The position numbers and the translations under genes were made by a program. This document shows positions 2,669-21,811 of a stretch of 26,844 bases of DNA, piece after piece. How positions within the stretch are numbered: the first letter of the stretch is position 1; the number at the start of each line of letters is the position of its first letter. The stretch lies in IMG/VR virus record IMGVR_UViG_3300017991_000359, positions 1-26,844 of that record. The stretch is one strand, 5' to 3'. This DNA is from a virus. A model generated the notes under the pieces. It saw only the letters and a list, made by a program, of their open reading frames with translations, was not told where the DNA came from and ran no database searches.

Positions 2669-5600
2669 GGAATGAAGCTCCCCTTGGCCTGGGCCATGTA
2701 GTAGCCGACGTGATCCGGGTTGGCATCGTACATCACGTTGAGCTTGGGGTTGACGGCGGTATCGGCGGCGAACGACTCCGACATCACCGAGTTGGTTTCC
2801 GCGCCACGGTGACTATAGACGCGGCCGCAGTACGAGTCACCCCACTTCCCGCGCTTGTACCGGTAGGAGTAGCCGCTGGAGTACGTCTTGGTGAACACCT
2901 TGCCACCGTGGGTGGCGTAGGTATCGCGGAACGCCAGTGCCGCGTCCAGTCCCTTGCCCAACGTGTCCACGTAGTGCCCGAACTCGTGGCGGAAGATCGC
3001 GGACAACCGGGTCGCGCTCGCATCTGCTGGAAGCACGATCACGTTCAGGCTCTGCATGTAGTAGGCACCGTCGTAGGCGTGCGTTGCCTTGAAGATCCTG
3101 GGCAGCCCCCTTTTCAGCGCCTCGTCCATGACCCGCTGGGACAGGTGCTCGAACGCCTCGTTGTACAGCTTGGCGGCGGCGTCGTGGGACACCTTGCGCA
3201 GCCCCACCTTGGACGGGGCGACGAACGCCCCCATCGACCCCTCCTTGACCGACCGCTGCGTGGCCTTGCGCACCACATCTGTCTCGACCTGGAACACCTT
3301 GTCCGTGTGCTTGCTGACGATCCCCTTGTTGAACCGCCTCACCTTGCCCGTCTCGGCCTGGACGAAGTCGCGGATCCTGGCAGCACGTTCGTGCTTGTGG
3401 AGGTTACGGCCGAACCGTCGCTGCATCTTGGCCGTCTCGGTGGCCAGGTAGTCGGACAGCCGTGCGCTTTCCCGCTTGATCCGCTCCTTCAGCTGCTTCT
3501 TCACCGACACCCCATCGAGGAGGCCATACTCGCTGTAGTCGGCCGCCTTCCCGGCGCCGGGCTGTTGCGGCTTTGGTGGCGCCGGCGGCTTCTTCTTCGG
3601 CTTCTTCTTTTTCGGCCCCTCGATCTTGGGCTTGGGCTTCGGCCTGACCGTGGGATCGGTGGGCTTCTTCTTCGGCTTCTTCTTTGGTGGCGCGGTGGGA
3701 CGCTTGGGACCTGGGCCGGACTTGGGCGCCATCTTGGGCGCGGGTTTGCCGAACGTGACCTTGGAGGGATCGGTGGTGCGCTGAATGTACCCACGCTTCT
3801 CCATCCTGGCCAGGACCGTCTCGATCCGCTCGTCGGTGGCGGCCTTCTTCAGTGCCTTGATGTCGTGGCGTGCCGCGACCCGCAGATCGCTGTTGAACTT
3901 GATGTACTGGAGGTCACCGGTGGTGCTGCTGCGCAGGGTGTAGACCCGGTGGGCAGCGGGTTGTGCCGTCTCGGCGAGCACGACCTGGCGCGTGGTCGCG
4001 CTGCCCAACCTCTCGATGTGCATCACCACGCCGTTGGTGTCGGCGGACAGGTTGAGCTTCTTGGACAGGTCGGACAGCACGTCCTTGACCGGGTCCTTCG
4101 CCTTGGCCACCTGGGCCGGTTTCGCCATGCCGCGGATCACCCGGTACTCCTGGTCGTACTGGTATCGCTGATAGACCGCCGCCGGCTTCATCTCGCCCGT
4201 CGCCGGGTTGGAGAACCACCGCTTGTGCAACCGGCTAGGCGCCACGAAATCCTCGGTGAACGGATACCTCTCGATCAGATCGGGATCGCCCACTGGAACT
4301 GGCTTGCCCGCGGACGGAACTGGGTGACCAATTTGCGGCCGCGGCCCGACCCCGCTCGGCACCTTGCCCCCCTTGGGCACGATCTTTGGCGCCACTGGAG
4401 CTCCGCCGCCGGCACGGGGCATCTGGTTGCGCGGCACCGACACCGTGGTTGTGACCGGGATCGTCCACGACCTGCAGAGGTGGTGGTACGGGGGCGGCCC
4501 GATGTTGGCGTCGGCCAGTTGGTTGCCGGCCTTGTAGTATTTGAAGATCCCGCGGTCATCGAGGCGCCCCATGCCGCTGCGGACCACGTCCGCGATCTTG
4601 GTGCCGTTGTTGGCCGTGACGATGGACTTGACACCGGTCTTCTGGTCCACCCGCTCACGGAGGAACGGCGAAGCGTCTCGTATGTCCTCGGGACGCGCCA
4701 CGTTCATCGCGCCGACGATCTGCTGGCTCACCACGTGCGTCTCGATGATCTGCCCGTCAAGGCACCGGCAGATTTCTGTGGTGCGTTCGTCCAGGACGGC
4801 CTGGACCTCGAGAGCCTCGATGCCCACCTCGATGTAGCCGCTGACCTCGGCGTATGACCTGGCGCGGTTGATCGCCGCCGACGCCACCGCGGTGAAGTAC
4901 CTGGCCCCCATCGCCTGCCACGCCTTGGGGATCGCCTTCTGGAGTGCGGCACCGATCTCGGTGCGGCCCAGCCCGTCCCGCAACCCCTGTTGCACCACGT
5001 TCCGCGCACGTGCGGTCAACCTGTCCGACCGGACGCCGGCTGCGTCACGCATCCACCACCCGTTTTGATCGGCGATGGTCTGGATCGCCACGAGGTCGGG
5101 CTGGCGCAGGGACAGGCCCACCGACGGCAAGAAGTTGGACCGCACCACCTTGCGTGCGTTGGTGAACACGCCCTGGAGCTTGGTTTCCACCTTGGTGCGC
5201 CACGTCGGCATCACGTCCTTCGCGGCGGCCCCCAGCATCTTGCGGAGATCGCCCCGGATCATCGCCAGTCTTTTCGCGCTCTCCTGGGCGGACAGGTTGG
5301 GCCAGTCGATGTTGAGGCGCCGAACGTACTTCTCCAGCTTGGGCGCCAGGATCTCCCGCTCGGCGAATCGCAGCTGGCCGGCGAGTCGTTGGGCGATCAG
5401 GCGCGAGTCCACTGGATCCTGCGGGGACAGGGCCTTCTCCACCAGCACACCACTCGGCCCAACCATCGACGCCGCGGCGTTGAGCTCGGCCTCGGCTGGT
5501 CGCATCGGGGTGATCGTCTCCACCCTCTCAAACACCGTGCGCCGTCCCCTGAACCGGGAACGGAGGATCGTGACCTCCCCCATAGGGAGACACTTCACGG

Positions 5601-10966: not shown

Positions 10967-11546
10967 CGTCACCCTCCAGTTCCTTGACCCGTCCCTGCCA
11001 CCACCGCCGCAAACAGCCGCGGCACTTGATCTTGCCGAAGTCCTTGTGGTGGTGACGGCACTTCGTCTTCCTGTCCACGTGCGTCCCTGTGCCGGGTTCT
11101 GCCCGTTGGAAGTGGTCACGTAGGGTTCCGGTCGGGATCAGGACGCGGACGGGCGGCAGGTCCCCGTCTCGGACCACGCACGGCACCAGGAGTTCCATGT
11201 GGTCGGGGCCGCCGGTGAACAGGTCCGGTCGGATCTCCACCGCCTCCTCCCACACCTCGTCGCACTCCTCGATGTCCTCGAGGGCACGCTCGAGCTCGGC
11301 GTCGTCCACGTCCACCTCGGTGCCCCCGGGAAGGCCCAGGCGCAGACCCAGGACCCGCTCCCACTGGTCGTCGTTGACCGCGGCGATCACGGTGTCGTCC
11401 AGGGTGACGAATGCCTTGCCCGCGAGGGCGCGGTAGGGGTGCTGTGCAATCTCGGTGGTCACGGTCACGTCTCCGTTGTCGTAGCGGCTGTACTCCGCGC
11501 CGGTTTCCACATCGCGCATGGTCGTGGATTTAGAACGGGTACTCAT
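10953..11546 (-). CDS. Hypothetical protein with C-terminal Cys/His cluster
   Basis: A 197-residue protein whose ATG lies 17 bases inside the 3' end of the terminase gene. The middle (about 75-100) is very acidic (DVDDAELERALEDIEECDEVWEE split by hydrophobics). The C-terminus has KCRHHHKDFGKIKCRGC near 165-182, a probable zinc-binding cluster, followed by a basic RRWWQGR. No family is recognised. Its overlap with terL and with the DnaJ-like gene suggests coupled expression in the packaging block. Confidence 0.75.
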   Translation of the reverse strand: MSTRSKSTTMRDVETGAEYSRYDNGDVTVTTEIAQHPYRALAGKAFVTLDDTVIAAVNDDQWERVLGLRLGLPGGTEVDVDDAELERALEDIEECDEVWEEAVEIRPDLFTGGPDHMELLVPCVVRDGDLPPVRVLIPTGTLRDHFQRAEPGTGTHVDRKTKCRHHHKDFGKIKCRGCLRRWWQGRVKELEGDDDQA

Positions 11547-13119
11547 GCTCGTCCTCGTCGCCGATGTGGATCTCCATTACATCTTCCCCCCCGTCGGCGT
11601 CCACGTCAAGGAAGTGCGTCCGTGCAGCACCGACCAGCTGCGAAAAGGCGTCCACCATGTCGTCGTGCTTGCCGAACGGGAACTCGATCAGTTCGTCCAC
11701 AAGGCTGCCGCGGCTGCCGTCGAACAGACCGCCGTTCGGGTCCAGGTGGGCCGAGAACACCACCTTGCCCTTTTCCAGCAACGGGGTGGCGCCGAGAAGG
11801 CGCATCTGCTTGCTGATCTTGGGCTTGGTGACCTTGATGTGGCCCTCCATCTCGGGGTGCTCGTTGATCACCCACTCGTCCACGGTGGACAGGCCGATCT
11901 TCTCGATCAGGACCAGCCACGGATCGTATGTCTGCGCCTCGGCGTGGATCACGTCGGCCAGGGTCTTGACCGACATCCGCTGGTGCCAGGCGTCCACGAT
12001 GTACAGGACCCCGCGCTCCTGGTCGATCGCGCCAACGCAGCACCCAGTGTAGTCCTGCTGCTTGCTGGTCTTGGACCGTGGGTTCGGCGTGCCGGCGGGG
12101 TCGTAGCTGGTGAAGAACACCAACCGATCCTGCTCCACCAACTCGGCGAACCGTTGGTCCTGGCGCAGGTCGCTGAACTCGAACCAGTCCGGTCGGATCA
12201 GCGCGGACTCGATGTCGATCGCCTGGTTGCGGAAGGCACGGTTGAACTCGATGCTCTGGATCTCGTCGAACCGCATCCGCAGCGCGGCCTCACTCCACTT
12301 GTCCGGCCAGATCGCGCCGAAGTTGGCGTCGATGTCGTACCGCAGCACCTTGTACGTGCTGCCGCCCATGATCTCGTGGGACAGGTCCCCGGGGTGCCAC
12401 AACGTGCAGATGTACCAGACGCGGCTGTCCGGCTCCAGGAGGTTGGTCCAGTCCGCCTTCCATGCCTGCTTGATCTGCTCGCGGAGGGCCGGGAAGGTGA
12501 GGGCGTTGCGGCGGTCCACCACGTCGTCGGCGATCAGCAGGTCGGCGCGGCCGCCAGTCGCCGTGGAGGTGATGCCCAGGGCCTCCACCGACGCGTCCCT
12601 GTGCCTCGCGGATCGCATCAGGACCAGACGGTGGGCGTTCCAGGGCGCGTCTGGGTTCGGCCGTAGGTCGGGGAACACCTCCCGGACACGGGGGTTCGTG
12701 GTGATGTGCTGGTCGATCTCGAACAGGCGCTCCTTGGCCCGGCCGTCGCTCGCGCACACCACCTTGGTCCGCAGGTTCGGGTTGTTGCCCAGTTCCCAGA
12801 TCACGCGCCCCACCACGTTGCTGGTCTTGGCGTGGTCACGAGGCGCGATCACCATGACCCGCTGATACCGATCCCAGGCCTGGTGCCACTCGTCGTGGAA
12901 CCACTGCTGGGCGTAGGGAAGGCGGCTCGACTCGTCCAGGAACGCGTACTCCATGAACGCCGACGCCGACTTGCGAGCGAGGGCGATGTGGTGGTTGCGT
13001 ATCGCCACGGCACGCTTGATCAGCCTGTCCCGGGACGGTGCACGGATGAACTTGTCCGCGACCAGCCGCGGGAGGTGGCCCACAGGAGGGCGGAAGTCCT
13101 TGTGGATTGCCGCGTCCAC
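11530..13119 (-). CDS. terL: Terminase large subunit
   Basis: A 529-residue protein that powers DNA packaging into the prohead and cuts the concatemer. Residues 90-100 hold the Walker A-like loop IAPRDHAKTS (K98), residues 194-202 the Walker B segment LLIADDVVD. The C-terminal RNase H-like nuclease shows FTSYDPAG (first acidic residue near 350) and GKHDDMVDAFSQL near 490-500. Start chosen is GTG at 13119, two bases before the ParB-like stop at 13121; the upstream site AAGAAG is weak, so translation is probably coupled. The length is normal for the family. It is followed through overlaps by two small genes and the portal, the usual order. The small subunit candidate lies about 6 kb upstream. 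Confidence 0.93.
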   Translation of the reverse strand: MDAAIHKDFRPPVGHLPRLVADKFIRAPSRDRLIKRAVAIRNHHIALARKSASAFMEYAFLDESSRLPYAQQWFHDEWHQAWDRYQRVMVIAPRDHAKTSNVVGRVIWELGNNPNLRTKVVCASDGRAKERLFEIDQHITTNPRVREVFPDLRPNPDAPWNAHRLVLMRSARHRDASVEALGITSTATGGRADLLIADDVVDRRNALTFPALREQIKQAWKADWTNLLEPDSRVWYICTLWHPGDLSHEIMGGSTYKVLRYDIDANFGAIWPDKWSEAALRMRFDEIQSIEFNRAFRNQAIDIESALIRPDWFEFSDLRQDQRFAELVEQDRLVFFTSYDPAGTPNPRSKTSKQQDYTGCCVGAIDQERGVLYIVDAWHQRMSVKTLADVIHAEAQTYDPWLVLIEKIGLSTVDEWVINEHPEMEGHIKVTKPKISKQMRLLGATPLLEKGKVVFSAHLDPNGGLFDGSRGSLVDELIEFPFGKHDDMVDAFSQLVGAARTHFLDVDADGGEDVMEIHIGDEDEHEYPF

Positions 13120-13120
13120 G

Positions 13121-13717
13121 CTACTTCTTCTTGCCGCTCACCTGGAACTTGTGGCCGCACTCTGGACACGTCGCCTCCACGGTGATCGTCACGTTGGACT
13201 TCGCGTCCTTCTTCTCCTGGAGGGCCTTCAGCTGCTCGTCGTTGGCCTTCTTGAACGCGTTCCAGTCGAAGTCCACCATCTGGGAGAACCCCTCCAGGGT
13301 TTCCCGGTCGAACGGCATCGTGGTGTTGAGGTCGGCCACGTTGAACTCGGCGCCGCTGCCGCTGGTCATCTCCTTGATCAGGACCGCCAGCTTGGCGTCG
13401 TCGCGCTTGAACTTCGTCTCGTTCGTCTCGATGGCGATCCGCCACGCCTGGGAGTCGGTGATCGGGCCGAAGTTGAAGCACACCGCTTTCTTGATCCCGA
13501 GGTGGTTGAACGCGGCGAGGCGGTGGTTCCCGTTGATTACCTCGAAGAACCCCGTGTCCAACTCGCGCACCAGGATGTTCTCCACCTGACCGTTGCGCTT
13601 GATGTTGGCGATCAGTTTCTCGGCCTGGTCTGGGTCCTCCACCTTGTAGTTCCAATCGGCGCCTACGAGCTTGCCCACGGGCAACTCGATCCATCGCGGG
13701 TCATTGAGCTTGGCCAT
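13121..13717 (-). CDS. ParB/sulfiredoxin-fold protein with C-terminal zinc ribbon
   Basis: A 198-residue protein; ATG has AGGAG seven bases upstream and lies 17 bases inside the dpdA 3' end. Residues about 10-110 form a ParB-N/Srx-type domain: the opening IELPVGKLVGADWNYK, a helix (AEKLIANIKRNGQ) and the signature VINGNHRLAAF near 58-70. The end of the protein has one CPECGHKF knuckle, and the last residues are Lys-rich. ParB-like folds occur as partition proteins, nucleases and ATP-using enzymes. Close linkage to dpdA suggests a DNA-modification partner, as ParB-like proteins accompany DpdA in bacterial dpd clusters (from memory). Biochemical role is inferred, not shown. Confidence 0.85.
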   Translation of the reverse strand: MAKLNDPRWIELPVGKLVGADWNYKVEDPDQAEKLIANIKRNGQVENILVRELDTGFFEVINGNHRLAAFNHLGIKKAVCFNFGPITDSQAWRIAIETNETKFKRDDAKLAVLIKEMTSGSGAEFNVADLNTTMPFDRETLEGFSQMVDFDWNAFKKANDEQLKALQEKKDAKSNVTITVEATCPECGHKFQVSGKKK

Positions 13718-14564
13718 CGCACATCTCCTGTGGCGCCGTGTCGGCGCGTGTCTGGTCGTTCCACTCGATCCCGCGCTCGCGCCACATCGACGTGACGGAC
13801 TCCTGGAGGCGGTGTCGTTTCATCAGCCACCGCGTGAACCGCACCTTGCACTTCTCGGCGCCGGCCAGGTCCTCGCGTTGTTCCACTTGGGCGGCGAGCA
13901 CAGCCTCGACGGTGTTGAGTCCCTTCTCGGCCAGGTCCCGCAGCTTGTAGGTGCGCCCGTCCTGCATGTGCCACGTCTTGTTGCCCGCCTGGAGGGAACC
14001 GGCCGACGAGTCCGCGGAGTAGAACGGGTAGCGGCGCAGGATCTTCTCGCTGCCCACGCCGAACATATGGATCTTGCGGGTGTCCCGGTACTTGGCCAGG
14101 ACCCGGGCGTACAGGTCGTCGAGCCAGATGATCTTCGCCGCGTCGCTCTTGCCCACCACACCGCCCAGGCAGAAGAACTCGTATCGCTCGGCCAACTCCT
14201 CAAGCACCGCGATCGGCTCCCCGAAGTGGTAGGTGGGCAACGGCGCGAACCCCGCCTCCTCCATGACACGCTGGTTCTCCGCGCTGGCCACCGGATCCCC
14301 GATCACGTCCAGCCCGGCGTACACGTCGATTATGTGGGACCGGTCGGCGATGAACTTCATGTACTCGTCGATGTCGATCTCGATGCCCAGGGTGTTGGCG
14401 CTGTGGGCGCCGCTGTCCAGGAAGAAGTGGAACCTGTCATCGAGCAGGTCCACGGTGGGCAGGAACCGCTGGGCGTAGACGTAGCTGATCAGGACGTTGG
14501 GATACAGCGTCTCGATCACCGCCTCGAGATCCTGGCGCTTGATCACGACCTCGAACACCCTCAT
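13701..14564 (-). CDS. dpdA: DpdA-like DNA 7-deazaguanine transglycosylase
   Basis: A 287-residue TIM-barrel-type protein related to tRNA-guanine transglycosylases in the DpdA form, which exchanges guanine in DNA for a 7-deazaguanine base. Visible motifs: FLDSGAHSA with D50 (the base-recognition/general-acid aspartate region), GLDVIGDP near 84-91, FCLGGVVG near 131-138 (compare the LGG of TGTs), KIHMFGVG near 164-171, and YSADSSAGS with D185 in the position expected for the nucleophile. It is shorter than bacterial tRNA TGTs and lacks their C-terminal zinc-binding CxCxxC, as phage DpdAs do. The ATG overlaps the queE stop (ATGA). The complete preQ0 pathway immediately upstream strongly supports the call. 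Confidence 0.87.
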   Translation of the reverse strand: MRVFEVVIKRQDLEAVIETLYPNVLISYVYAQRFLPTVDLLDDRFHFFLDSGAHSANTLGIEIDIDEYMKFIADRSHIIDVYAGLDVIGDPVASAENQRVMEEAGFAPLPTYHFGEPIAVLEELAERYEFFCLGGVVGKSDAAKIIWLDDLYARVLAKYRDTRKIHMFGVGSEKILRRYPFYSADSSAGSLQAGNKTWHMQDGRTYKLRDLAEKGLNTVEAVLAAQVEQREDLAGAEKCKVRFTRWLMKRHRLQESVTSMWRERGIEWNDQTRADTAPQEMCDGQAQ

Positions 14565-15151
14565 GACAGCCCCCACGCCTTGTGCGCCTGGACGTTGAGC
14601 CGCCAGGGAATCTCGCTAGTGTTCTCCTCGATCAGGTGCACCGCCCAGTCCACGTTCTCCTGGACCACCCGGTCCCCGTCGTACGCGGGGGACAGGAAGT
14701 AGTTGTCCGCGGCGATCAGTGGCACCGGGATCTTGCACCCGGCCTCCACGATATACTTCAACTCGGCGACGGGGCGGCTGAAGTTCTCGATCAGACGCGA
14801 CGGGCCGACCTTGGGACTGACCACCACGTAGTCGATCCCCTCGGCCACGGCAAGCGTGCCGTTGGTTTCGATGGTGAGCATGGCGCCGAGCGCGTGGAGT
14901 GCGCGGACCAGGACGTTGTCGACCTGAAGCGCGGGTTCGCCGCCGCACAGGGACACCACGTCGGACCCCAACTCCTCGACCTCGTCCAGGATCATCTGAA
15001 GGGACATGTCGCGGCCATTCGTGTGCTCCTTGGTGTCGCAGAACGGACAGTTGAGGTTGCACCCGCTGAAACGCAGGAACGTGGTGGGAATACCGATCCT
15101 GGCGCCCTCGCCCTGGATCGACCGCACGATCTCGTGGACCTTGTACAGCAT
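14561..15151 (-). CDS. queE: 7-carboxy-7-deazaguanine synthase (radical SAM)
   Basis: A 196-residue enzyme that rearranges 6-carboxy-tetrahydropterin to 7-carboxy-7-deazaguanine. The radical SAM cluster motif CNLNCPFC gives C31, C35 and C38 in a CX3CX2C arrangement, which binds the [4Fe-4S] cluster. The family N-terminus with SIQGEG (11-16) and FLRFSGC is present, as is the GGEP SAM-binding motif (about 68-72). Later, TIETNGT and VVSPK match QueE strands. Length is close to the usual 200-220. The ATG overlaps the queC stop (TGATG). Substrate comes from QueD; product goes to QueC. Confidence 0.95.
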   Translation of the reverse strand: MLYKVHEIVRSIQGEGARIGIPTTFLRFSGCNLNCPFCDTKEHTNGRDMSLQMILDEVEELGSDVVSLCGGEPALQVDNVLVRALHALGAMLTIETNGTLAVAEGIDYVVVSPKVGPSRLIENFSRPVAELKYIVEAGCKIPVPLIAADNYFLSPAYDGDRVVQENVDWAVHLIEENTSEIPWRLNVQAHKAWGLS

Positions 15152-15906
15152 CAGTTGTGCCCCCTCTCGTCCCGGTGCGCCCGGTCGTAGGCCAGTTGGT
15201 CCGGGGTCTTGACTGTTTGTTCCCCGTCGTACCAGCCGCCGGCCCACAACGCGTCCTCCCGTTGGCGGCACGAGTCGCACTCGCCGCAGTGGGCCTCCCC
15301 GTCCAAGTAGCACGACCACGTGGCGTCGTAGTCCACGCCCAGCTTGCGACCGAGGTCCACGATCTTGGCCTTGGGCCAGGTGGCGAACGGGGCGCAGATC
15401 CGCGGATGGAACGACGGGTCGGTGCCCTCCCGGGCCGCACGCTCCATCGCCTCCACAAACTCCAGACGGTCGTCCCAGTAGTTGCCGCTGTCCAACCCGT
15501 TGGCGCCCAGGTAGATGCTGTTGATCCCGTGGGCCTCGGCGAATCCGACCGCGTAGGCCAGGAAGATCCCGTTGCGGAACGGGACGTAGCTGGGCGGCGT
15601 ACCGCCATCCTCGATCTGGCCACGACCGCGCCCCTTCGGAAGCCCCTTGACCGCCTCGGTGTTGCCCTTCAACAGGCCGCACTCCGGTGCCATCCACCCC
15701 AGGTCGACCCGCACGATCTTGGGGTGGGCGCCGTACTTCTGGGCGTTGTCCACGGCCACGTCGAGCTCGCGCCGCAACGTCTGGCCGTAGTCGAAGATCA
15801 GGGCGACGATCTCCTCCGGGTCGATCAGGTGCATGTTCTGTAGCCGCGCCAGGCACGTGGTACTGTCGATCCCGCCTGACAGTAGGATCACCGCTCCTCG
15901 TTTCAT
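15151..15906 (-). CDS. queC: 7-cyano-7-deazaguanine synthase
   Basis: A 251-residue enzyme that uses ATP and ammonia to turn 7-carboxy-7-deazaguanine into preQ0. The N-type PP-loop SGGIDST is at residues 10-16. FDYGQ near 38-43, a PFRNG segment near 110-116 and the ANGLDSGNYWD region match QueC. The C-terminal zinc site is CYLDGEAHCGECDSC, about 199-213. Start ATG has GGAGGGG six bases upstream. It is a free-standing QueC, with no fused glutamine amidotransferase domain, so it does not itself predict the amidated base made by Gat-QueC fusions. Confidence 0.95.
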   Translation of the reverse strand: MKRGAVILLSGGIDSTTCLARLQNMHLIDPEEIVALIFDYGQTLRRELDVAVDNAQKYGAHPKIVRVDLGWMAPECGLLKGNTEAVKGLPKGRGRGQIEDGGTPPSYVPFRNGIFLAYAVGFAEAHGINSIYLGANGLDSGNYWDDRLEFVEAMERAAREGTDPSFHPRICAPFATWPKAKIVDLGRKLGVDYDATWSCYLDGEAHCGECDSCRQREDALWAGGWYDGEQTVKTPDQLAYDRAHRDERGHN

Positions 15907-15909
15907 CTC

Positions 15910-16488
15910 CTACCCCTCCCGGCCCGCGAAGGCCATGAACTCGCCCCTGGTGCGTGGGTCCTCGAGGAACCGTCCACGCAGGGCCGTTGTGGTCATCCAT
16001 GCTTCCCGTTTCTCCACCCCCCTCGCCACCATGCACAGGTGACGACCCCGGACCAGCACGCCCACGCCCAGGGCACCTGCGGTGTTCTCCACGACTTCCG
16101 CGATCTGGTCGGTCATCCGTTCCTGGATCTGGAGGCGGCGTGCATACACCTCGACGGCACGCGCCAGCTTGGACACGCCCACCACCTTGCCGTTCTTGTC
16201 CGGCAGGTAGGCGACATAGACGTGGCCGTAGAACGGCAGGATGTGGTGCTCGCACGTGGACCAGTATTCGATGGGACCGAGGCACACCATCTGGTTGTAG
16301 CTGTCGCTGGCGAACGCGGTCTGGAGGATCCCCTCCGGCTTCTTGTCGTAGCCGCCGAACAGGTGCTTCCAGGACTTGACCACGCGCTTCGGCGTGTCGA
16401 CCAACCCCTCCCGCTCCGGGTCCTCCCCGATGTACTCCAGCATGGTCCGAACCGCGGCGAGCGCGTTTGCTTCTGTCGGCTTTGTCAT
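15910..16488 (-). CDS. folE: GTP cyclohydrolase I
   Basis: A 192-residue enzyme that converts GTP to dihydroneopterin triphosphate, the first step to preQ0. The motif [12 protein letters not shown] gives zinc ligands C79 and H82, and [13 protein letters not shown] gives C152. The family segments TPKRV (32-36), VGxSKLAR (104-110) and [19 protein letters not shown] are all present. Start ATG overlaps the queD stop as ATGA, with GAGGAGG seven bases upstream. Carrying folE makes the phage less dependent on the host folate enzyme for substrate. Confidence 0.95.
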
Positions 16489-16973
16489 TTGATCGCCTCC
16501 TCGTAGTCCGCCTCCCACGTGGCGCACGACTTCTCCGTCTCCCACACGTCCACCCTGATCACGTCCGCGCCGACCACCGGGATCTCTGCCAACCCCCTGG
16601 CGATCATCGACGCGAGCAGGGTGGCCATGTTCTCAGCGGTTGGCATGTTGATCATCACCACGACCCGCAGGTCCAGGTCCGCGGCACGAAGCACCTCCAG
16701 GAGCGGATCCTGCTCCCACAGGATCACGGCGTGGTCCCACGGCACCGTGTCCGCGCCGCACCATTTCCCCTCGTCCAGGATCCCGCGCACCACCGTGGAC
16801 AGGTCCTTGAAATCGGCGACCATGCCGGTGGAGGGACCGACACGGCGCAACTCGGCCCCCTCGAGATGGGCGACGACGCGGTAGCTGTGGCCGTGCAGGT
16901 TGCGGCATCCACCCTCGTGGAGTGGCAGTCGGTGTGCCGCCTCGAATTTGAATTCCTTGCTGATACTGTGCAT
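16485..16973 (-). CDS. queD: 6-carboxy-tetrahydropterin synthase
   Basis: A 162-residue enzyme of the 6-pyruvoyl-tetrahydropterin synthase superfamily. It makes 6-carboxy-5,6,7,8-tetrahydropterin from dihydroneopterin triphosphate. H14 (EAAHRL), H27 and H29 (NLHGHSY) bind zinc, C23 is the catalytic cysteine, and D80-H81 (WDHAV) the partner dyad. PTAEN at 111-115 and E145/E147 in VWETEKS match the pterin-binding part. It is slightly longer than typical bacterial QueD. ATG has GGAGG five bases upstream across the TAG of the previous gene. First gene of the queD-folE-queC-queE-dpdA cassette. Confidence 0.95.
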
Positions 16974-17447
16974 CTAGTCCTCCACCTCGCCTGGCCCGTC
17001 GAACGCGACAGGGCCGACGTCATCGCCGCCGTCGAACGGCAACGGTTCCAGATCCTCCTGGGCCGCGTCTGTCAGGGCGAACTCCACCAGCTGACCCGGG
17101 ACCAGTGGGCCGCCGCACCCCTTGCACTCCTCACCAACGCGCTGTCCCGTGTTGGCCTGGAGTCCGCACTCCTGACACGTCACCTCGTAGATGGCCGCGA
17201 TGGCGCCGACGCCCGTCTTGTCCTGTACACCGAACAGGCCGTTGAGCAAGCCCAACGTGCCCAGTAGGTACAGGGTGCGCCCGTCGTCCGCCTTGTGGAA
17301 CAGCACCTGGACCGTTGGGTGGTGAGCCACCGGCGGCTCCACCGCGATCCGCGTGTTGACCAGGACCCCCATGCCGTCCCGGTCCCGCTCCACCAAGTCG
17401 TTGAGCAGTTCGATCACATCGTGCACACTGACGTTCGCCTTGATCAT
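16974..17447 (-). CDS. Hypothetical zinc-ribbon protein before queD
   Basis: A 157-residue protein starting at ATG with GGGAGAGG upstream. The N-terminal 30 residues are a charged amphipathic helix (VHDVIELLNDLVERDRDG), followed by a beta-rich middle (VQVLFHKADDGRTLYLLGTLG) and a zinc ribbon with CQEC (about 94-97) and CKGC (about 109-112). The end is acidic. It ends directly before queD, so it is transcribed with the base-modification genes, but nothing in the sequence ties it to that pathway. No family recognised. Confidence 0.78.
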   Translation of the reverse strand: MIKANVSVHDVIELLNDLVERDRDGMGVLVNTRIAVEPPVAHHPTVQVLFHKADDGRTLYLLGTLGLLNGLFGVQDKTGVGAIAAIYEVTCQECGLQANTGQRVGEECKGCGGPLVPGQLVEFALTDAAQEDLEPLPFDGGDDVGPVAFDGPGEVED

Positions 17448-17464: not shown

Positions 17465-17776
17465 TTATTCGGCCGCCTGGGGCCGTTGATCGTCCGCCGC
17501 GGTGACCCGGATCCCTGGGGCTGCTTCTCGCCGCACCGAACACTGTTCGTTCCACGCCGCCCGCAACAGGCGGTCCACGATCGCCGCGTAGGTCGGTCGC
17601 GTATAGACGCGGTCCCACGCCAGCTTGGCCAGCAGATCGAACTTGGCCTCCGCCTCCGAGGAACCGCGGCCGATAGGTGGCGACCCGGGGAGCTTGGTCG
17701 CATCCGCCTCGAACTGACGCGGCACGGCCCGCCGCATCCTGACCTCGATTCCAAGTGCCTCGTCGATGGTGGTCAT
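17465..17776 (-). CDS. Hypothetical small protein
   Basis: A 103-residue protein with ATG overlapping the previous stop (ATGA) and a strong GGAGGG three bases upstream. It carries basic segments (RMRRAVPRQFE) and a helical middle (EAEAKFDLLAKLAWDRVYTRPTYAAI split across turns), with two charged ends. No motif or membrane segment. Not recognised; it belongs to the run of small genes between the terminase small subunit and the deazaguanine cassette. Confidence 0.7.
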   Translation of the reverse strand: MTTIDEALGIEVRMRRAVPRQFEADATKLPGSPPIGRGSSEAEAKFDLLAKLAWDRVYTRPTYAAIVDRLLRAAWNEQCSVRREAAPGIRVTAADDQRPQAAE

Positions 17777-17961
17777 GGTCCCTCCAGTCTGTCCAGGATC
17801 CGCCACCACAGGCAAACCCACCACGGGGTCGACTCCAAACGCTTGTCGCGCCACCTCTCCACCACCTCGCCGGCGCGGTCGTACACCACGATATCCACGG
17901 TCCACGGCCACCGGCCGCGTTCCACACGGATCGTGAATGTTCCCGCGTCCTTGGACGGCAT
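17773..17961 (-). CDS. Hypothetical very small Trp-rich protein
   Basis: A 62-residue protein. ATG at 17961 is preferred over GTG one codon upstream because GGGAGG lies eight bases away. The N-terminal half alternates polar and hydrophobic residues as in beta strands (TFTIRVERG, TVDIVVYDRAGEVVERW); the C-terminal WWVCLWWRILDRL is unusually Trp-rich and could sit at a membrane surface. Function unknown. Confidence 0.65.
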   Translation of the reverse strand: MPSKDAGTFTIRVERGRWPWTVDIVVYDRAGEVVERWRDKRLESTPWWVCLWWRILDRLEGP

Positions 17962-17964
17962 CAC

Positions 17965-18453
17965 CTATCCCTCCCCCACCTCGCGCTTGAGGTCGACCAG
18001 GACACGGCGCAACGCGTCCCGTTTGTCGCGCACTTCGCCCAGGTAGGTCACGATCTCCTCGATCCTGCCGATCATCTCCTGGCGCTCGACACGCTGTTCC
18101 TCGATCCTGTTCACCGCCTCGGCCCGACGCGCCCTGGTCTGCGCCAGCTCCTCCTCGAGCGCGGCCACGCGGCCGCACAGGTAGTCCACCACCGCCGTGG
18201 GCGGCACCTCGTTGTCGGTAGCGCACGTTTCCGGGGTGGTGAACACGACGCGCTCGTCCAGGTTGCGAACGGTGGCGTGGTCCGGGATCCCCAGGAACCG
18301 CCGCAACCGCCCCCGTTCGGCGCTGTCCTCGATCAGGGCACCGAACCGCCGCACGATCTCGGGGTGCTTGGTGGTCAGGATCTGCGCGTCCTTGGCGCCC
18401 ATGACCTCCCACAGCATCTCCAGGGCAACGTTCTTGCCTGGTCCATCACCCAC
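17965..18453 (-). CDS. Hypothetical coiled-coil protein
   Basis: A 162-residue protein beginning with GTG, with GGGAGG about six bases upstream. Residues about 90-155 form a long charged coiled coil (VAALEEELAQTRARR, EQRVERQEMIGRIEEI, RDALRRVLVDLKREV). The N-terminal part is helical with MLWEVMGAKDAQIL. There is no DNA-binding or catalytic motif. It overlaps no gene but is only one base from its upstream neighbour, so it is in the same operon. Function unknown. Confidence 0.75.
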   Translation of the reverse strand: MGDGPGKNVALEMLWEVMGAKDAQILTTKHPEIVRRFGALIEDSAERGRLRRFLGIPDHATVRNLDERVVFTTPETCATDNEVPPTAVVDYLCGRVAALEEELAQTRARRAEAVNRIEEQRVERQEMIGRIEEIVTYLGEVRDKRDALRRVLVDLKREVGEG

Positions 18454-18454
18454 G

Positions 18455-18757
18455 TCACACCTCCCTCGTCTCGGGGCACTCCTCGCCGGTGCACCCCGTG
18501 TCCGTCGGCTGTTGGGCGGCGGCTGCCGCCAGGACCTTCTGGATCTCGGGCGGCGGCCCGCTGATCACCTCGACGCGCGTGTAGTCGCACCAGAACGCGT
18601 CCTTGACCTTCCCATCCTTGTCCAGGTCACGGGGCTTTAACGCCACCATGTCGCACCCGGTCAGGTGGAACGTGTAGGACATGATGATCCCCTCGAACCC
18701 GGTGATGACGTCCTTGGCGTAGGACCCCAACTCGATCTTCATCTGTGGCTGTTGCAT
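18455..18757 (-). CDS. Conserved phage-type small beta-barrel protein
   Basis: A 100-residue protein; ATG follows AAGGAG. A second ATG at residue 6 could also serve. The core, ELGSYAKDVITGFEGIIM then HLTGCDMVALKP and a WCDYTRVEVI end, matches a small protein often seen in phages with the pattern GxxAKDxVTGFxG...YLTGCxxV...WFDxxRLxV. The pattern suggests an SH3-like barrel. The C-terminal Ala/Gln/Thr/Cys tail (about 75-100) is variable. Its function is not known to me. Confidence 0.78.
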   Translation of the reverse strand: MQQPQMKIELGSYAKDVITGFEGIIMSYTFHLTGCDMVALKPRDLDKDGKVKDAFWCDYTRVEVISGPPPEIQKVLAAAAAQQPTDTGCTGEECPETREV

Positions 18758-18770
18758 CTGCCTCTCCTTG

Positions 18771-19046
18771 TCACATCCAAACTTCCGCGATCACAGGGTC
18801 GTCCCCTGGTGACGGCCCAACTTTCACAAGTCCGCCAGGCAACAGGCCGCGTGCGGCCTCTAGTGTGTCGGCGAACTTCGCTTCCATCATGAAGACCACG
18901 CACCATGGCGGGATGTCGCCTGCCGTTTCCATGGCGCGGACAACGAAGCAGTCCGGGTAGTCCCTGGGGTGGTCATAAATGGCGAACACGCGCACACGTC
19001 CACGTCGCGTCACCTGCATCCACTCGTCGCGCCTGTCCACTGCCAT
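18771..19046 (-). CDS. Hypothetical small protein
   Basis: A 91-residue protein with GAGG upstream of the ATG, overlapping nothing and following the terminase small-subunit gene by two bases. It seems alpha/beta: basic start (VTRRGRVRVFAIYD), an Asp/Pro-rich turn and a helix (AKFADTLEAARGLL). No motif recognised. It is the first of six small genes ahead of the queD cassette. Confidence 0.7.
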   Translation of the reverse strand: MAVDRRDEWMQVTRRGRVRVFAIYDHPRDYPDCFVVRAMETAGDIPPWCVVFMMEAKFADTLEAARGLLPGGLVKVGPSPGDDPVIAEVWM

Positions 19047-19048
19047 CT

Positions 19049-19693
19049 CTACCTCGCGTGGTCGGGCATCTTGCCCGTCGTCATGAACTCCACCACCTCG
19101 TCCTCGGTCCAGTCCCGGAACGGGTCGTCGCCGCGGTGCTCGTGGATCTGGTCCGGCCCGCCCAGGAACCGCTCCATCAGCCGCGCCCCGCGCTCGTATG
19201 TCCCCAGGGCCGACGCCAACGACGCGCCGGTCTTGATCTTCTTGCCGTCGCTGTCCTGGTACTCCTTGACCCGCACCAGGATCTCCGCCTTGATCAGGCG
19301 CAACTCGGCCAGGCTCACCTGGATGATCTCGTCCAACTCCTCGGCCTGTTCCTCGTGGAACCTGATCAGGGTCAACTGCTTCCGCTCCTGGGCCTCGGCC
19401 TGGACGTCCAGGAACGCCTTCCGAATCGGCGCCATGCCCTCGTTCGGCCGCCCCGCACCGTCGATGTAGAATTTCGCCGTGGACCAGCCGACGCCCGCCG
19501 CCTTCGCCGCCTTCTCGATGTTCTGGTCCTTGAAGAACGCGTCCTGGAGCTTGTTGAAGGTGGCGACGTTGATCCGCGGTGCCCGGACTTTCCCCGGCTT
19601 CTTCGGTGCCTTGCCCTGGCCGGGCGATTTGCCCCTACTAGCCTTTGCCGGTGGTTTGGCCGAACCACCACTGCCCTTGGCCTTCGCTGTCAT
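19049..19693 (-). CDS. Probable terminase small subunit
   Basis: A 214-residue protein, ATG overlapping the ribbon-helix-helix gene stop (ATGA) with AGGAG eight bases upstream. A basic, Lys/Ala/Gly/Pro-rich N-terminal 40 residues precede a helix-turn-helix (about 45-75: FNKLQDAFFKD, then IEKAAKAAGVGWSTAKFYIDG). A long helical stretch (EEQAEELDEIIQVSLAELRLIKAEI) likely forms the oligomerisation core, and a conserved-looking ALGTYERGARLMERFLG near 165-180 resembles phage terminase small subunits. The acidic C-terminus could contact TerL. This would recognise viral DNA for packaging. A different DNA-binding regulator cannot be excluded, since terL is about 6 kb away. Confidence 0.68.
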   Translation of the reverse strand: MTAKAKGSGGSAKPPAKASRGKSPGQGKAPKKPGKVRAPRINVATFNKLQDAFFKDQNIEKAAKAAGVGWSTAKFYIDGAGRPNEGMAPIRKAFLDVQAEAQERKQLTLIRFHEEQAEELDEIIQVSLAELRLIKAEILVRVKEYQDSDGKKIKTGASLASALGTYERGARLMERFLGGPDQIHEHRGDDPFRDWTEDEVVEFMTTGKMPDHAR

Positions 19694-20525: not shown

Positions 20526-20804
20526 CTACTCCTCCACCGCCTCGACCCGGAGGCCGTTGAGCGCCATGAGGGTGAACCCGGCCGGGTCGTCGTGGGACTT
20601 GTCGTCGGCGCCACGCAGCAGGATCTTGACCGCCCCTGGGATCGGTTCGAAGAACCTTGTGCTGAACCGTATCGTGCCTGCCTCGACTCGCCGCACTTCG
20701 TCCCGGATCGCCTCGATGGGAACGGCCGTGCCGCCGCTGCCCTGCAGGTAGCCCACCGCCTCGGCGCCGGTGAGGACATTCTTGAACTTGTACAGGTACT
20801 TCAT
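20526..20804 (-). CDS. Hypothetical small alpha/beta protein
   Basis: A 92-residue protein; ATG overlaps the upstream stop (ATGA) and the Shine-Dalgarno is weak, so coupling is likely. It starts with MKYLYKFKNVLTGAEA and has a helix (IEAIRDEVRRVEAG) between beta strands (RFSTRFFEPIPGAVKILLRG). Not recognised. Confidence 0.7.
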   Translation of the reverse strand: MKYLYKFKNVLTGAEAVGYLQGSGGTAVPIEAIRDEVRRVEAGTIRFSTRFFEPIPGAVKILLRGADDKSHDDPAGFTLMALNGLRVEAVEE

Positions 20805-21004
20805 GGCTGTGGCTTCTCGGTGGGGACTGCCACGTCGATGCAAACCCGATCCAGCAGCCGGTGCATCCTCAGCGTCCCACCGGAGGCCGCCACCGCGTCT
20901 TCGAACGCCCTTTCGATGCTTTCCCGCATCTCGTCATCCACGTGCGGCGAACACTCCTCCAGGAGCTTGAGGCATCCAAGGTATCGCAAGTGCTCGTCAT
21001 TCAT
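20801..21004 (-). CDS. Hypothetical small helical protein
   Basis: A 67-residue protein whose ATG lies 8 bases inside the previous gene (ATGAATGA), with GAGGAGGT nine bases upstream. It is mostly helical and acidic (LGCLKLLEECSPHVDDEMRE split by a turn, SIERAFEDAVAAS), ending in a beta strand and Pro/Lys tail. Function unknown. Confidence 0.7.
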   Translation of the reverse strand: MNDEHLRYLGCLKLLEECSPHVDDEMRESIERAFEDAVAASGGTLRMHRLLDRVCIDVAVPTEKPQP

Positions 21005-21575
21005 CGCCGACCTCCTCAGTGGCGTCGTGGACCGGGTTCTGGCAGTCGTCGCACCTGTACCGTCCAGGATCGAGTTCGGCGCCACACGTGCAGCAACTGG
21101 GGGGCGCGTCGTACCGTTCGTGTGCGACGATGTGGCCCAGGGCCATCTCGGTCAGGACTTGGCCCAGCGAGATCCCGGTAGCCTCCGCGATCGTACCCAC
21201 CTCCGTGGCCAGGATCTCCAGGAGGTCGTCCTGGGTCAGCGGATCGCTGCCTTGCGCGAGCTCCACCGTGGACTCGGTGATCATCGACACACCTTCCTCG
21301 TTAGATTTGTCCCGCTCGAACTGGATCACGACGCGGCCCTTCTGACACTGCCGTTCCGGTGGCACCTGGACGAGATCCACCGCGAACCGCATCGTCCACT
21401 CGTGCTCGCACTCGGGACAGTACATCCCAAGATCCCAGAACCCCTCGTCCGGGTTCGGATCGCCGCACTCCACGTCGTAGTCGTCGGAGAATGTGGGTGC
21501 TGTGCGGCGGCACCGTGGACACTGGACCGTGCGCGGCACGCCCAGCATCTTGTTGAGGTCCAAGTTGTTGCCCAT
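20997..21575 (-). CDS. Multi-zinc-ribbon protein
   Basis: A 192-residue protein with at least two complete zinc ribbons. The first uses CPRC (about 19-22) and CPEC (about 53-56), separated by an acidic loop. The C-terminal one uses CCTCGAEL (about 160-165) and CDDC (about 174-177). A helical, acidic segment (about 105-150) lies between. ATG follows the recurrent leader GGAAAGGGTAA. Such proteins usually bind nucleic acid or RNA polymerase, but no specific family can be named. It is one of several zinc-ribbon genes in this region. Confidence 0.78.
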   Translation of the reverse strand: MGNNLDLNKMLGVPRTVQCPRCRRTAPTFSDDYDVECGDPNPDEGFWDLGMYCPECEHEWTMRFAVDLVQVPPERQCQKGRVVIQFERDKSNEEGVSMITESTVELAQGSDPLTQDDLLEILATEVGTIAEATGISLGQVLTEMALGHIVAHERYDAPPSCCTCGAELDPGRYRCDDCQNPVHDATEEVGDE

Positions 21576-21590: not shown

Positions 21591-21601
21591 GCTCGTGCGT
21601 C

Positions 21602-21811
21602 CTACTTGACCAGGACCACGTGCTCGTCCCCGTCTGGTCGCCGGATCACGACCTTACTGCCTTGCGCCGCCTCGCCGGTGGCGTAGTCCAGGAGGGACAT
21701 GGCCCGGCGCACCACCTCGGCGTTGAACCCGGCGTCGATCCGCTTGCGGATCTCCTTCATCTTGTCCGCCGCCTCCTTCGTGAAATCGAACTGCATTCGT
21801 ACCTTCGACAT
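21602..21811 (-). CDS. Ribbon-helix-helix-like small protein
   Basis: A 69-residue protein that looks like a ribbon-helix-helix DNA-binding protein: VRMQFDFTKEAADKMKEI gives the strand and first helix, FNAEVVRRAMSLLDYAT the second helix (compare the AEVVRRAL helix of the fold), and the C-terminal VVIRRPDGDEHVVLV a beta hairpin. It would act as a dimer. ATG has the GGAAAGGGTAA leader. Its target is unknown; it could regulate the small-gene region. Confidence 0.75.
   Translation of the reverse strand: MSKVRMQFDFTKEAADKMKEIRKRIDAGFNAEVVRRAMSLLDYATGEAAQGSKVVIRRPDGDEHVVLVK

Follow-up and report, generated by a model that had tools for sequence, protein, structure and literature searches.

The window analysed here is the whole of virus record IMGVR_UViG_3300017991_000359 (26,844 bases, G+C 65%), in which 46 genes were called, all on the minus strand except one call at the left end that is taken as spurious. 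It carries a cassette of five genes in the order queD-folE-queC-queE-dpdA, transcribed from position 16973 down to 13701, whose predicted products would make 7-cyano-7-deazaguanine (preQ0) and insert it into phage DNA; a ParB-like gene and the gene of the terminase large subunit (terL) follow. Two near relatives of the window were found: a 23.7-kb contig (G002) that is 99.9% identical to it, and a 94,958-base contig (G001) whose aligned stretches are 94-96% identical, with one short stretch at 87%. A run of 117 identical bases occurs at both ends of G001, as expected of a complete genome. The genes of the cassette and those that follow it are listed below with their family matches and motifs and, for the five cassette genes, omega in the comparison with G001.

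16485..16973, minus strand: QueD (6-carboxytetrahydropterin synthase), 162 amino acids; PF01242 5.8e-26, phrog_2389 1.1e-28; CX3HGH (CRNLHGH), PTAEN; omega 0.03
15910..16488, minus strand: FolE (GTP cyclohydrolase I), 192 amino acids; PF01227 4.9e-65, TIGR00063 above cut-off; CEHH, GRHLC; omega 0.27
15151..15906, minus strand: QueC (7-cyano-7-deazaguanine synthase) without Gat domain, 251 amino acids; PF06508 4.6e-49; SGGIDS, CX7CX2CX2C; omega 0.22
14561..15151, minus strand: QueE (7-carboxy-7-deazaguanine synthase, radical SAM), 196 amino acids; TIGR04508 9.6e-31 (below cut-off), phrog_2076 5e-31; CX3CX2C, GGEP, QAHK; omega 0.16
13701..14564, minus strand: DpdA (predicted preQ0:DNA transglycosylase), 287 amino acids from the ATG; phrog_887 1.2e-41; DSGA, DVIGDP, KIHMFG, YSADSS; omega 0.06
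13121..13717, minus strand: ParB-like protein, 198 amino acids; phrog_723 9.1e-21; zero amino-acid changes relative to G001
11530..13119, minus strand: TerL (terminase large subunit), 529 amino acids; phrog_38 7.2e-72, PF17289 1.1e-7

Along the cassette, queD and folE overlap by 4 bases, folE and queC are 3 bases apart, queC and queE overlap by 1 base, and queE and dpdA by 4. An earlier note, made from the letters of this DNA alone, had described five genes set so closely and retaining their key residues; the positions, the strand and the family matches bear it out, and so do the motifs. The open frame of dpdA begins at GTG 14576, upstream of the ATG from which the 287 amino acids are counted. 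The same note had let the run end at dpdA, but it overlooked the ParB-like gene, which overlaps dpdA by 17 bases and is separated from terL by one base. The Pfam matches are above the cut-offs, and among the NCBIfam models that of FolE matched above its curated cut-off. Each of the five cassette proteins retains motifs for catalysis and metal binding; those of QueD, FolE, QueE and DpdA are read with the meanings usually given to them. The motifs of QueC are stated in PMC13329287, where, in the parts of the text that were available (as for each paper cited here), eight residues follow the first zinc cysteine, as against seven in the window QueC. All five cassette genes and the ParB-like gene are open in both the window and G001. 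The five are intact and under purifying selection, and chance is no explanation for them.

The earlier note would have counted a place of DpdA among the tRNA-guanine transglycosylases (TGTs) in a tree against its reading; the outcome favours the note, with a single TGT in the tree. The window protein belongs by its match to the phage family phrog_887, and none of the transglycosylase models of Pfam or NCBIfam matched it; PF01702 had zero matches at E 0.1 in 11 contigs (G001 and G002 standing for the window), with 14 of 14 control genomes positive. In the DpdA tree described below, E. coli Tgt, the single TGT included, lies on a very long branch. For the AlphaFold2 model of the window DpdA, made with 48 sequences (mean pLDDT 85.2, pTM 0.81), Foldseek ranked first 7ui4, the solved structure of the DNA preQ0 insertase DpdA (E 2e-6), and after it mostly TGTs; on the TGT 2pwv (VIA) the model gave Z 15.9 and a root-mean-square deviation (rmsd) of 4.8 over 232 residues, the listed rows being tied. 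Residues D50, S51, G52, D86, H166, S183 and D185 are invariant across the 48 sequences. Among named phages, 227 records match the window DpdA, all at less than 60% identity and, among the matches listed, at no more than 43%, mostly over partial length. A profile of five highly divergent DpdAs retrieved nothing useful from the PDB by sequence. The protein is best described as a phage-type DpdA outside the tRNA enzyme family with a TGT-like barrel in its model, and activity on DNA is predicted for it.

FolE, QueD, QueE and QueC in turn would make preQ0 from GTP, and DpdA would exchange guanine for preQ0 in the phage DNA, giving 2'-deoxy-7-cyano-7-deazaguanine (dPreQ0) in part of the guanines and protecting the DNA from guanine-reading restriction enzymes. 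The complete route from GTP to preQ0, together with an insertion enzyme, was already claimed in the earlier note and holds by family matches and motifs; we think it probable that the cassette makes preQ0 and that DpdA inserts it as dPreQ0. The chemistry of dPreQ0 and the resistance to restriction are known from studied relatives: mass spectrometry detected dPreQ0 in Rosebush (~28% of G) and in CAjan (~32%), which have the same five-gene set and no amidotransferase (PMC6884629), and by analogy dPreQ0 is the most likely product of the window cassette. By gene content, the cassette would join the phage sets of preQ0 genes and DpdA without amidotransferase (group 2 of Hutinet 2019). The anti-restriction system of preQ0 and DpdA is known, and the gene order of the window cassette is new; with this cassette the system reaches an uncultivated phage family whose contigs measure ~95-102 kb.

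That dPreQ0 is the simplest product, as the earlier note had it, is the best supported choice because no match to QueF, Gat or PF01702 was found in G001, and the proposal is now based on a genome that has end repeats rather than on a fragment. No QueF was found in G001; no Gat domain was found there apart from a match to QueC itself, a weak negative in that the same search overlooked a weak GATase in contig G011; and PF01702 had no match, ArcS being covered only through PF01702. In scans of G001 in all frames, with profiles built from only four and two sequences, phage Gat-QueC matched the QueC gene only, the profile of four CAjan/9g-type DNA-polymerase clamps had no match, and the small profile of the Vut_1 transporter had none.

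Of the 128 genes called in G001, 40 were scanned with Pfam (including 38 of the 87 outside the stretch common with the window), and 16 of these matched at 0.01, among them SSB, RuvC, DnaB, RecT, YqaJ, HNH, MoxR, VWA, amidase and DUF5131. Two observations count against dPreQ0 as read here: the NCBIfam models of QueD, QueC and QueE matched only below their cut-offs, and the other 24 of the 40 scanned genes had no match, so that a tailoring enzyme that went unrecognised could alter the base. We consider it unlikely that preQ0 is inserted and then converted by such an enzyme to another 7-deazaguanine (an amide, an aminomethyl or a new form): the 7-deazaguanine cassettes of relatives carry extra radical SAM enzymes and glycosyltransferase-like proteins, and one scanned gene of G001 encodes a DUF5131 protein that weakly matches radical SAM, but every gene in the five-gene run is identified, and the families QueF, Gat and PF01702 drew no match, as stated. 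The DUF5131 gene lies at L007:6587-7393 of the 94,958-base relative, and its protein could act on a modified base.

In bacteria, FolE, QueD, QueE and QueC serve the synthesis of queuosine, and phages that possess these genes without DpdA exist (PMC6884629). It could be argued from this that the cassette raises queuosine precursors for the host tRNA and leaves the phage DNA unmodified, an explanation that we regard as very improbable, given that a phage-type dpdA sits in the same run of overlapping genes and that G001 has neither a PF01702 match nor QueF.

The protein of the ParB-like gene that overlaps dpdA was modelled by AlphaFold2 with a pLDDT of 90.7, and Foldseek matched the model to CTP-bound ParB and Noc, including 7bnr (ParB-CTPgammaS) at 2.2e-8; residues 8-102 align with 7bnr (VIA) at Z 15.4 and rmsd 1.5 over 93 residues. 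The model also matches sulfiredoxins, at Z up to 10.4. A GxxR-type motif, GNHRLAA, occupies residues 63-69, and we take it to have the role of the GxxR motif in the CTP-binding N domain of ParB. Beyond the N domain, some alignments extend to residue 150 or further, and the DNA-gate and C-terminal dimer domains are barely covered. ParB proteins, like polymerase clamps, encircle DNA. The ParB-like protein would bind or slide on DNA and bring DpdA there, on the packaging side of the genome, taking the place held by a DNA-polymerase clamp in the DpdA phages of the CAjan/9g type; we infer that ParB and the polymerase clamp have equivalent roles towards DpdA. In our estimation the odds are about even that DpdA is brought to DNA by the ParB-like protein.

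A precedent may be found in the dpd islands of bacteria, which resemble the window in combining a transglycosylase with a protein of the ParB superfamily, and whose DpdA (7ui4) is the best fold match of the window DpdA. In these islands the ParB-like ATPase DpdB is described as serving the insertion of dPreQ0 with DpdA, although some islands may do without it (PMC12839542); a DndB-type domain is part of dpdB (PMC11888242). The islands differ in purpose, marking the host DNA for restriction, which the phage modification escapes (PMC12839542, PMC11888242). A dpdB homologue has been suggested for the first gene of Rosebush-like sets in the paper on CRB2 (PMC6392294). The window protein may work like DpdB; it is not filed as DpdB because no DpdB or DndB match was obtained. 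Operons for cytosine carboxymethylation in phages (CmoX) likewise have a ParBc-domain protein beside the modification genes; they differ in their cytosine chemistry, and DpdA is not mentioned as a part of them in the available portions of the paper, which calls the role of the ParB-domain protein next to phage DNA-modification genes unknown (PMC12783734).

The neighbours of DpdA were surveyed by a scan with the DpdAs of the window, EC151, RHph_X3_2, CAjan and 9g, which returned 284 relatives in viral contigs; the best 80 of the 284 were analysed, counting a clamp within ~2.5 kb of DpdA and a ParB-like gene within 1.5 kb. A clamp is the neighbour in 63 loci and a ParB-like gene in nine; none has both, three have neither and five are cut off. 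Anywhere in the stretch, a ParB match occurs in 0 of the 63 clamp-class loci and a clamp match in 0 of the nine ParB-class loci (with a profile of CAjan/9g-type clamps only). When DpdAs were clustered at 70% identity, 32 clusters had clamps only, 18 had ParB only, none was mixed and five were unlabelled. A separate scan for Rosebush-type loci found ParB directly before DpdA in 9/10 and TerL after FolE in 7/10. Single-protein scans with the DpdAs of L025 and L038 found only their own contigs, near copies, or the L040 contig described below; that with the Lars DpdA found two loci, and that with the DpdA of Streptococcus phage MS1, a very divergent protein with an adjoining DnaN, found none.

A DpdA tree of 94 rows was built by a quick method, its long branches making the deep joins unsure; 85 rows are labelled (66 clamp, 19 ParB), and eight of the 80 loci were left out (two near-identical to the window, and six with DpdA fragmented or shorter than 200 amino acids). 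On this tree each neighbour label is a single change, versus ~17 in shuffles, and the nearest rows to the window are of the ParB class. Therefore, the split between clamp and ParB follows the lineages of DpdA. Many independent origins of the neighbour classes were considered and rejected, as the tree requires one change.

Several points weigh against the ParB-like protein as a partner of DpdA. Since the type of neighbour follows the phylogeny of DpdA, the link between ParB and DpdA may be inherited rather than functional. The ParB-class loci are few and partly copies, the nine being seven distinct ones (two are near copies of the window, and there is one identical pair). Cellulophaga phage phiSM is an exception to the division: besides the ParB adjoining DpdA, a clamp is encoded a few genes further. 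The PADLOC matches of the window protein include no DpdB row (the content of the library for DpdB being unchecked), and Pfam found no DndB domain in it. Finally, the DpdA of phage 9g together with Gat-QueC gives much modification of a plasmid without other phage genes (PMC6884629), so that DpdA can in some cases do without a partner. The words 'clamp', 'ParB' and 'DpdB' are absent from the available text of PMC6884629 and 'clamp' from that of PMC8310023 and PMC8306585, no literature search having been aimed at DpdA with a clamp.

The named systems nearest to the window by arrangement are the Rosebush cassette (Lars, Rosebushvirus rosebush) and that of Gordonia phage Sour, which like the window have a set of preQ0 genes and DpdA, with a ParB-like gene overlapping DpdA, directly before terL. 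The order of genes differs, being ParB-DpdA-QueC-QueD-QueE-FolE-TerL in Lars whereas it is QueD-FolE-QueC-QueE-DpdA-ParB-TerL in the window; Sour has the Lars order with a small gene inside, and Nadezda has ParB-x-DpdA-x-QueD-QueE-FolE-x-terminase, without QueC. The TerL of Lars has 31% identity to that of the window over 72 residues, and the Lars DpdA is in another branch of the tree. Because the TerLs of the window, Lars, L141, L155 and Nadezda are barely similar (no more than 31% identity, or no BLAST match), sets of preQ0 genes and DpdA sit before terL in several phage lineages. The earlier note had called both the gene order and the position by the terminase distinctive. The order is so: exactly this one was seen in none of the remaining 78 loci among the 80 with DpdA, and in none of the named phages covered. 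The position is not, as a ParB-bearing set directly before terL is known in the Rosebush type (Lars) and in Sour, and one gene away in Nadezda.

Phages of the CAjan/9g type (Queuovirinae) have the same enzymes as the window, except that 9g has Gat-QueC in place of QueC; the product of CAjan is dPreQ0, as noted. The window DpdA is 31-34% identical to four DpdAs of this type. There, a DNA-polymerase clamp and a polymerase come after DpdA, directly or with one small gene in between, where the window has the ParB-like gene; the cassette genes are spaced by others, with no ParB in the stretches covered.

Either the ParB-like protein assists DpdA, or its gene serves packaging or regulation in the terL region, has nothing to do with DpdA and stands in an inherited neighbourhood. 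The latter concerns the partner step only, and we give it serious weight, at somewhat less than an even chance. It gains from a relative with a 79% identical TerL in which a 69% identical ParB-like protein abuts TerL (L020:7393-7992) and no DpdA match was found in the 98-kb contig; from ParB-like genes that accompany pyrimidine-type modification genes in the same phage family; from contig L040, which keeps two ParB genes of the DpdA-linked type with only the tail of dpdA left; and from the single change on the tree, which accounts for the pattern. It is opposed by ParB beside DpdA in Finch, Mufasa8 and phiSM with no terminase within the stretch read, by ParB beside DpdA ~20 kb from terL in G024, and by the occurrence of ParB on either side of DpdA, including DpdAs just 18-26% identical to that of the window. 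The arrangement in L020, ParB and TerL without DpdA, is as if the cassette had been lost or not yet gained.

As a broader and more tentative proposal, which we hold to be possible and on balance doubtful, DpdA would need a clamp-like partner on DNA, for which there would be two solutions (a replication-coupled clamp in CAjan and 9g, and a packaging-side CTP clamp of the ParB type in the window phage, Rosebush and Sour), and the ParB-like genes upstream of terL would be a common adaptor around which cassettes of different chemistry (preQ0; QueC-less 7-deazaguanine with glycosyltransferases; pyrimidine hypermodification) are exchanged. The comparison gives the ParB-like protein a concrete, testable role as the DNA partner of DpdA. 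The most interesting side of the window cassette is its setting, with a ParB-like partner in place of a clamp at a site that appears prone to exchange.

The site before terL was compared across the phage family. Of 35 loci with TerL relatives, 20 distinct contigs with at least ~3.8 kb before terL were analysed, leaving out G002 (near-identical to the window), near copies (L037, L041 or L042, L026, L014), contigs with shorter upstream sequence, and L045 (a weak TerL match). Recognised DNA-modification genes of several chemistries precede terL in 12 of the 20, and two more are doubtful (G008, G019). The genes are of 7-deazaguanine type in G001, G015, G018, G021, G023 and G028; a C5-methylase with radical SAM in G003; an amino acid:DNA transferase (PF18724) with GATase in G011; and a TAGT glycosyltransferase in G007, G012, G017 and G022 (the match in G017 being barely above the cut-off), accompanied by radical SAM in three. 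No recognised modification genes precede terL in G010, G024, G026, G030, G031 and G033. A ParB-like match occurs in all 12 modification-bearing contigs and in G008, G019, G010 and G030, and is absent from the stretch of the other four. The closest TerL relatives (70-79%) are without a preQ0 set in the sequence searched.

All four TAGT matches in 33 contigs fall in the stretch before terL; DpdA lies in that stretch in six of eight contigs (two of the six, G015 and G016, being near copies) and elsewhere in G024 and G032; and the C5-methylase lies there in G003 and its near copy G004, and elsewhere in G010 and G011. PF12851 (TET dioxygenase), sought beside TAGT, had no match in the 33 contigs, and the controls were equally unmatched, so the result is uninformative. 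Up to ~8 kb before terL, L013, L017, L021, L022, L027 and L032 encode TAGT, B12-type and other radical SAM enzymes, an FkbM-like methyltransferase, a C5-methylase, and the amino acid:DNA transferase with GATase. The combination of TAGT with several radical SAM enzymes in these pyrimidine-type sets looks unusual to us.

Sets for DNA modification seem to be exchanged at this site. Two different records, L038 (G028) and L040 (G030), are 99.5% identical from position 4313 on, across 8 kb including terL, and unrelated upstream of it. Upstream, L038 carries a 7-deazaguanine set, and L040 has a ParB-like gene of another type that runs in frame into the last ~35 codons of dpdA and is 51-60% identical to the ParBs beside pyrimidine-type genes, with further proteins without assignment beyond; the two larger of the L040 proteins before the break found nothing useful in the PDB and matched no named phage. 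To judge from the alignment, the pair looks as it would after a swap of cassettes with the break inside dpdA, and an assembly error is a possible explanation of the break. The site before terL thus presents one phage family with several DNA-base chemistries and one pair of contigs resembling a recent exchange.

Some of the 7-deazaguanine sets of the family have DpdA without QueC. They are located as follows.

L025:78-6612, QueC-less set with DpdA
L028:477-7977, QueC-less set with DpdA
L033:16-4090, QueC-less set with DpdA
L038:58-5883, QueC-less set with DpdA
L072:2823-10023, QueC-less set with DpdA

In G015, G018, G023, G028 and G024 the order is QueD-QueE-FolE-115-amino-acid protein (phrog_17812)-DpdA-ParB with various genes between, QueD of G023 being off the contig end. 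Three sets include a glycosyltransferase-like protein, two include Vut_1, and three have a radical SAM or related protein. QueC was found neither by Pfam nor by a local profile, a negative that holds firmly for G024 (96.7 kb) and G018 (26.2 kb) alone, the others ending near the set. Relatives of phrog_17812 also occur in the QueD/QueE/FolE sets of Cellulophaga phage phiST and Acidovorax phage ACP17. The product of the QueC-less sets is not obvious; our guess is 7-carboxy- or plain 7-deazaguanine, perhaps glycosylated. Carboxy- and plain 7-deazaguanine were reportedly found in phage DNA by Cui in 2023. At L031:6302-7988, terL is preceded by QueD, QueE and ParB; the 17.7-kb contig gave no match to QueC or DpdA, and the 14.2 kb searched for FolE gave none either.

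Two further genes lie upstream of the window cassette.

16974..17447, minus strand: called gene of a 157-amino-acid protein, function not assigned; phrog_21281 4.6e-6 (a family of unknown function); abuts QueD with zero gap
19049..19693, minus strand: 214-amino-acid protein, candidate small terminase subunit; family cl3, with 13 members among 20 terL loci

The earlier note had placed the cassette between terminase genes, which is not upheld because only TerL was identified as one. The 214-amino-acid protein had no terminase match in Pfam, NCBIfam, PHROGs or the PDB, nor any other family or structure match there; its family often stands shortly before terL in relatives, and in some contigs the modification genes lie before, not behind, it. 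One TerL scan of genome contigs, made in search of the host, found no relative. Upstream of the cassette, positions 17583-17893, 18453-19055, 20800-21012 and 21594-21808 have no alignment to G001, a local turnover of small genes. The transcription unit of the cassette may begin with the gene of the 157-amino-acid protein; L020 encodes a 59% identical relative of this protein, upstream of its terL.

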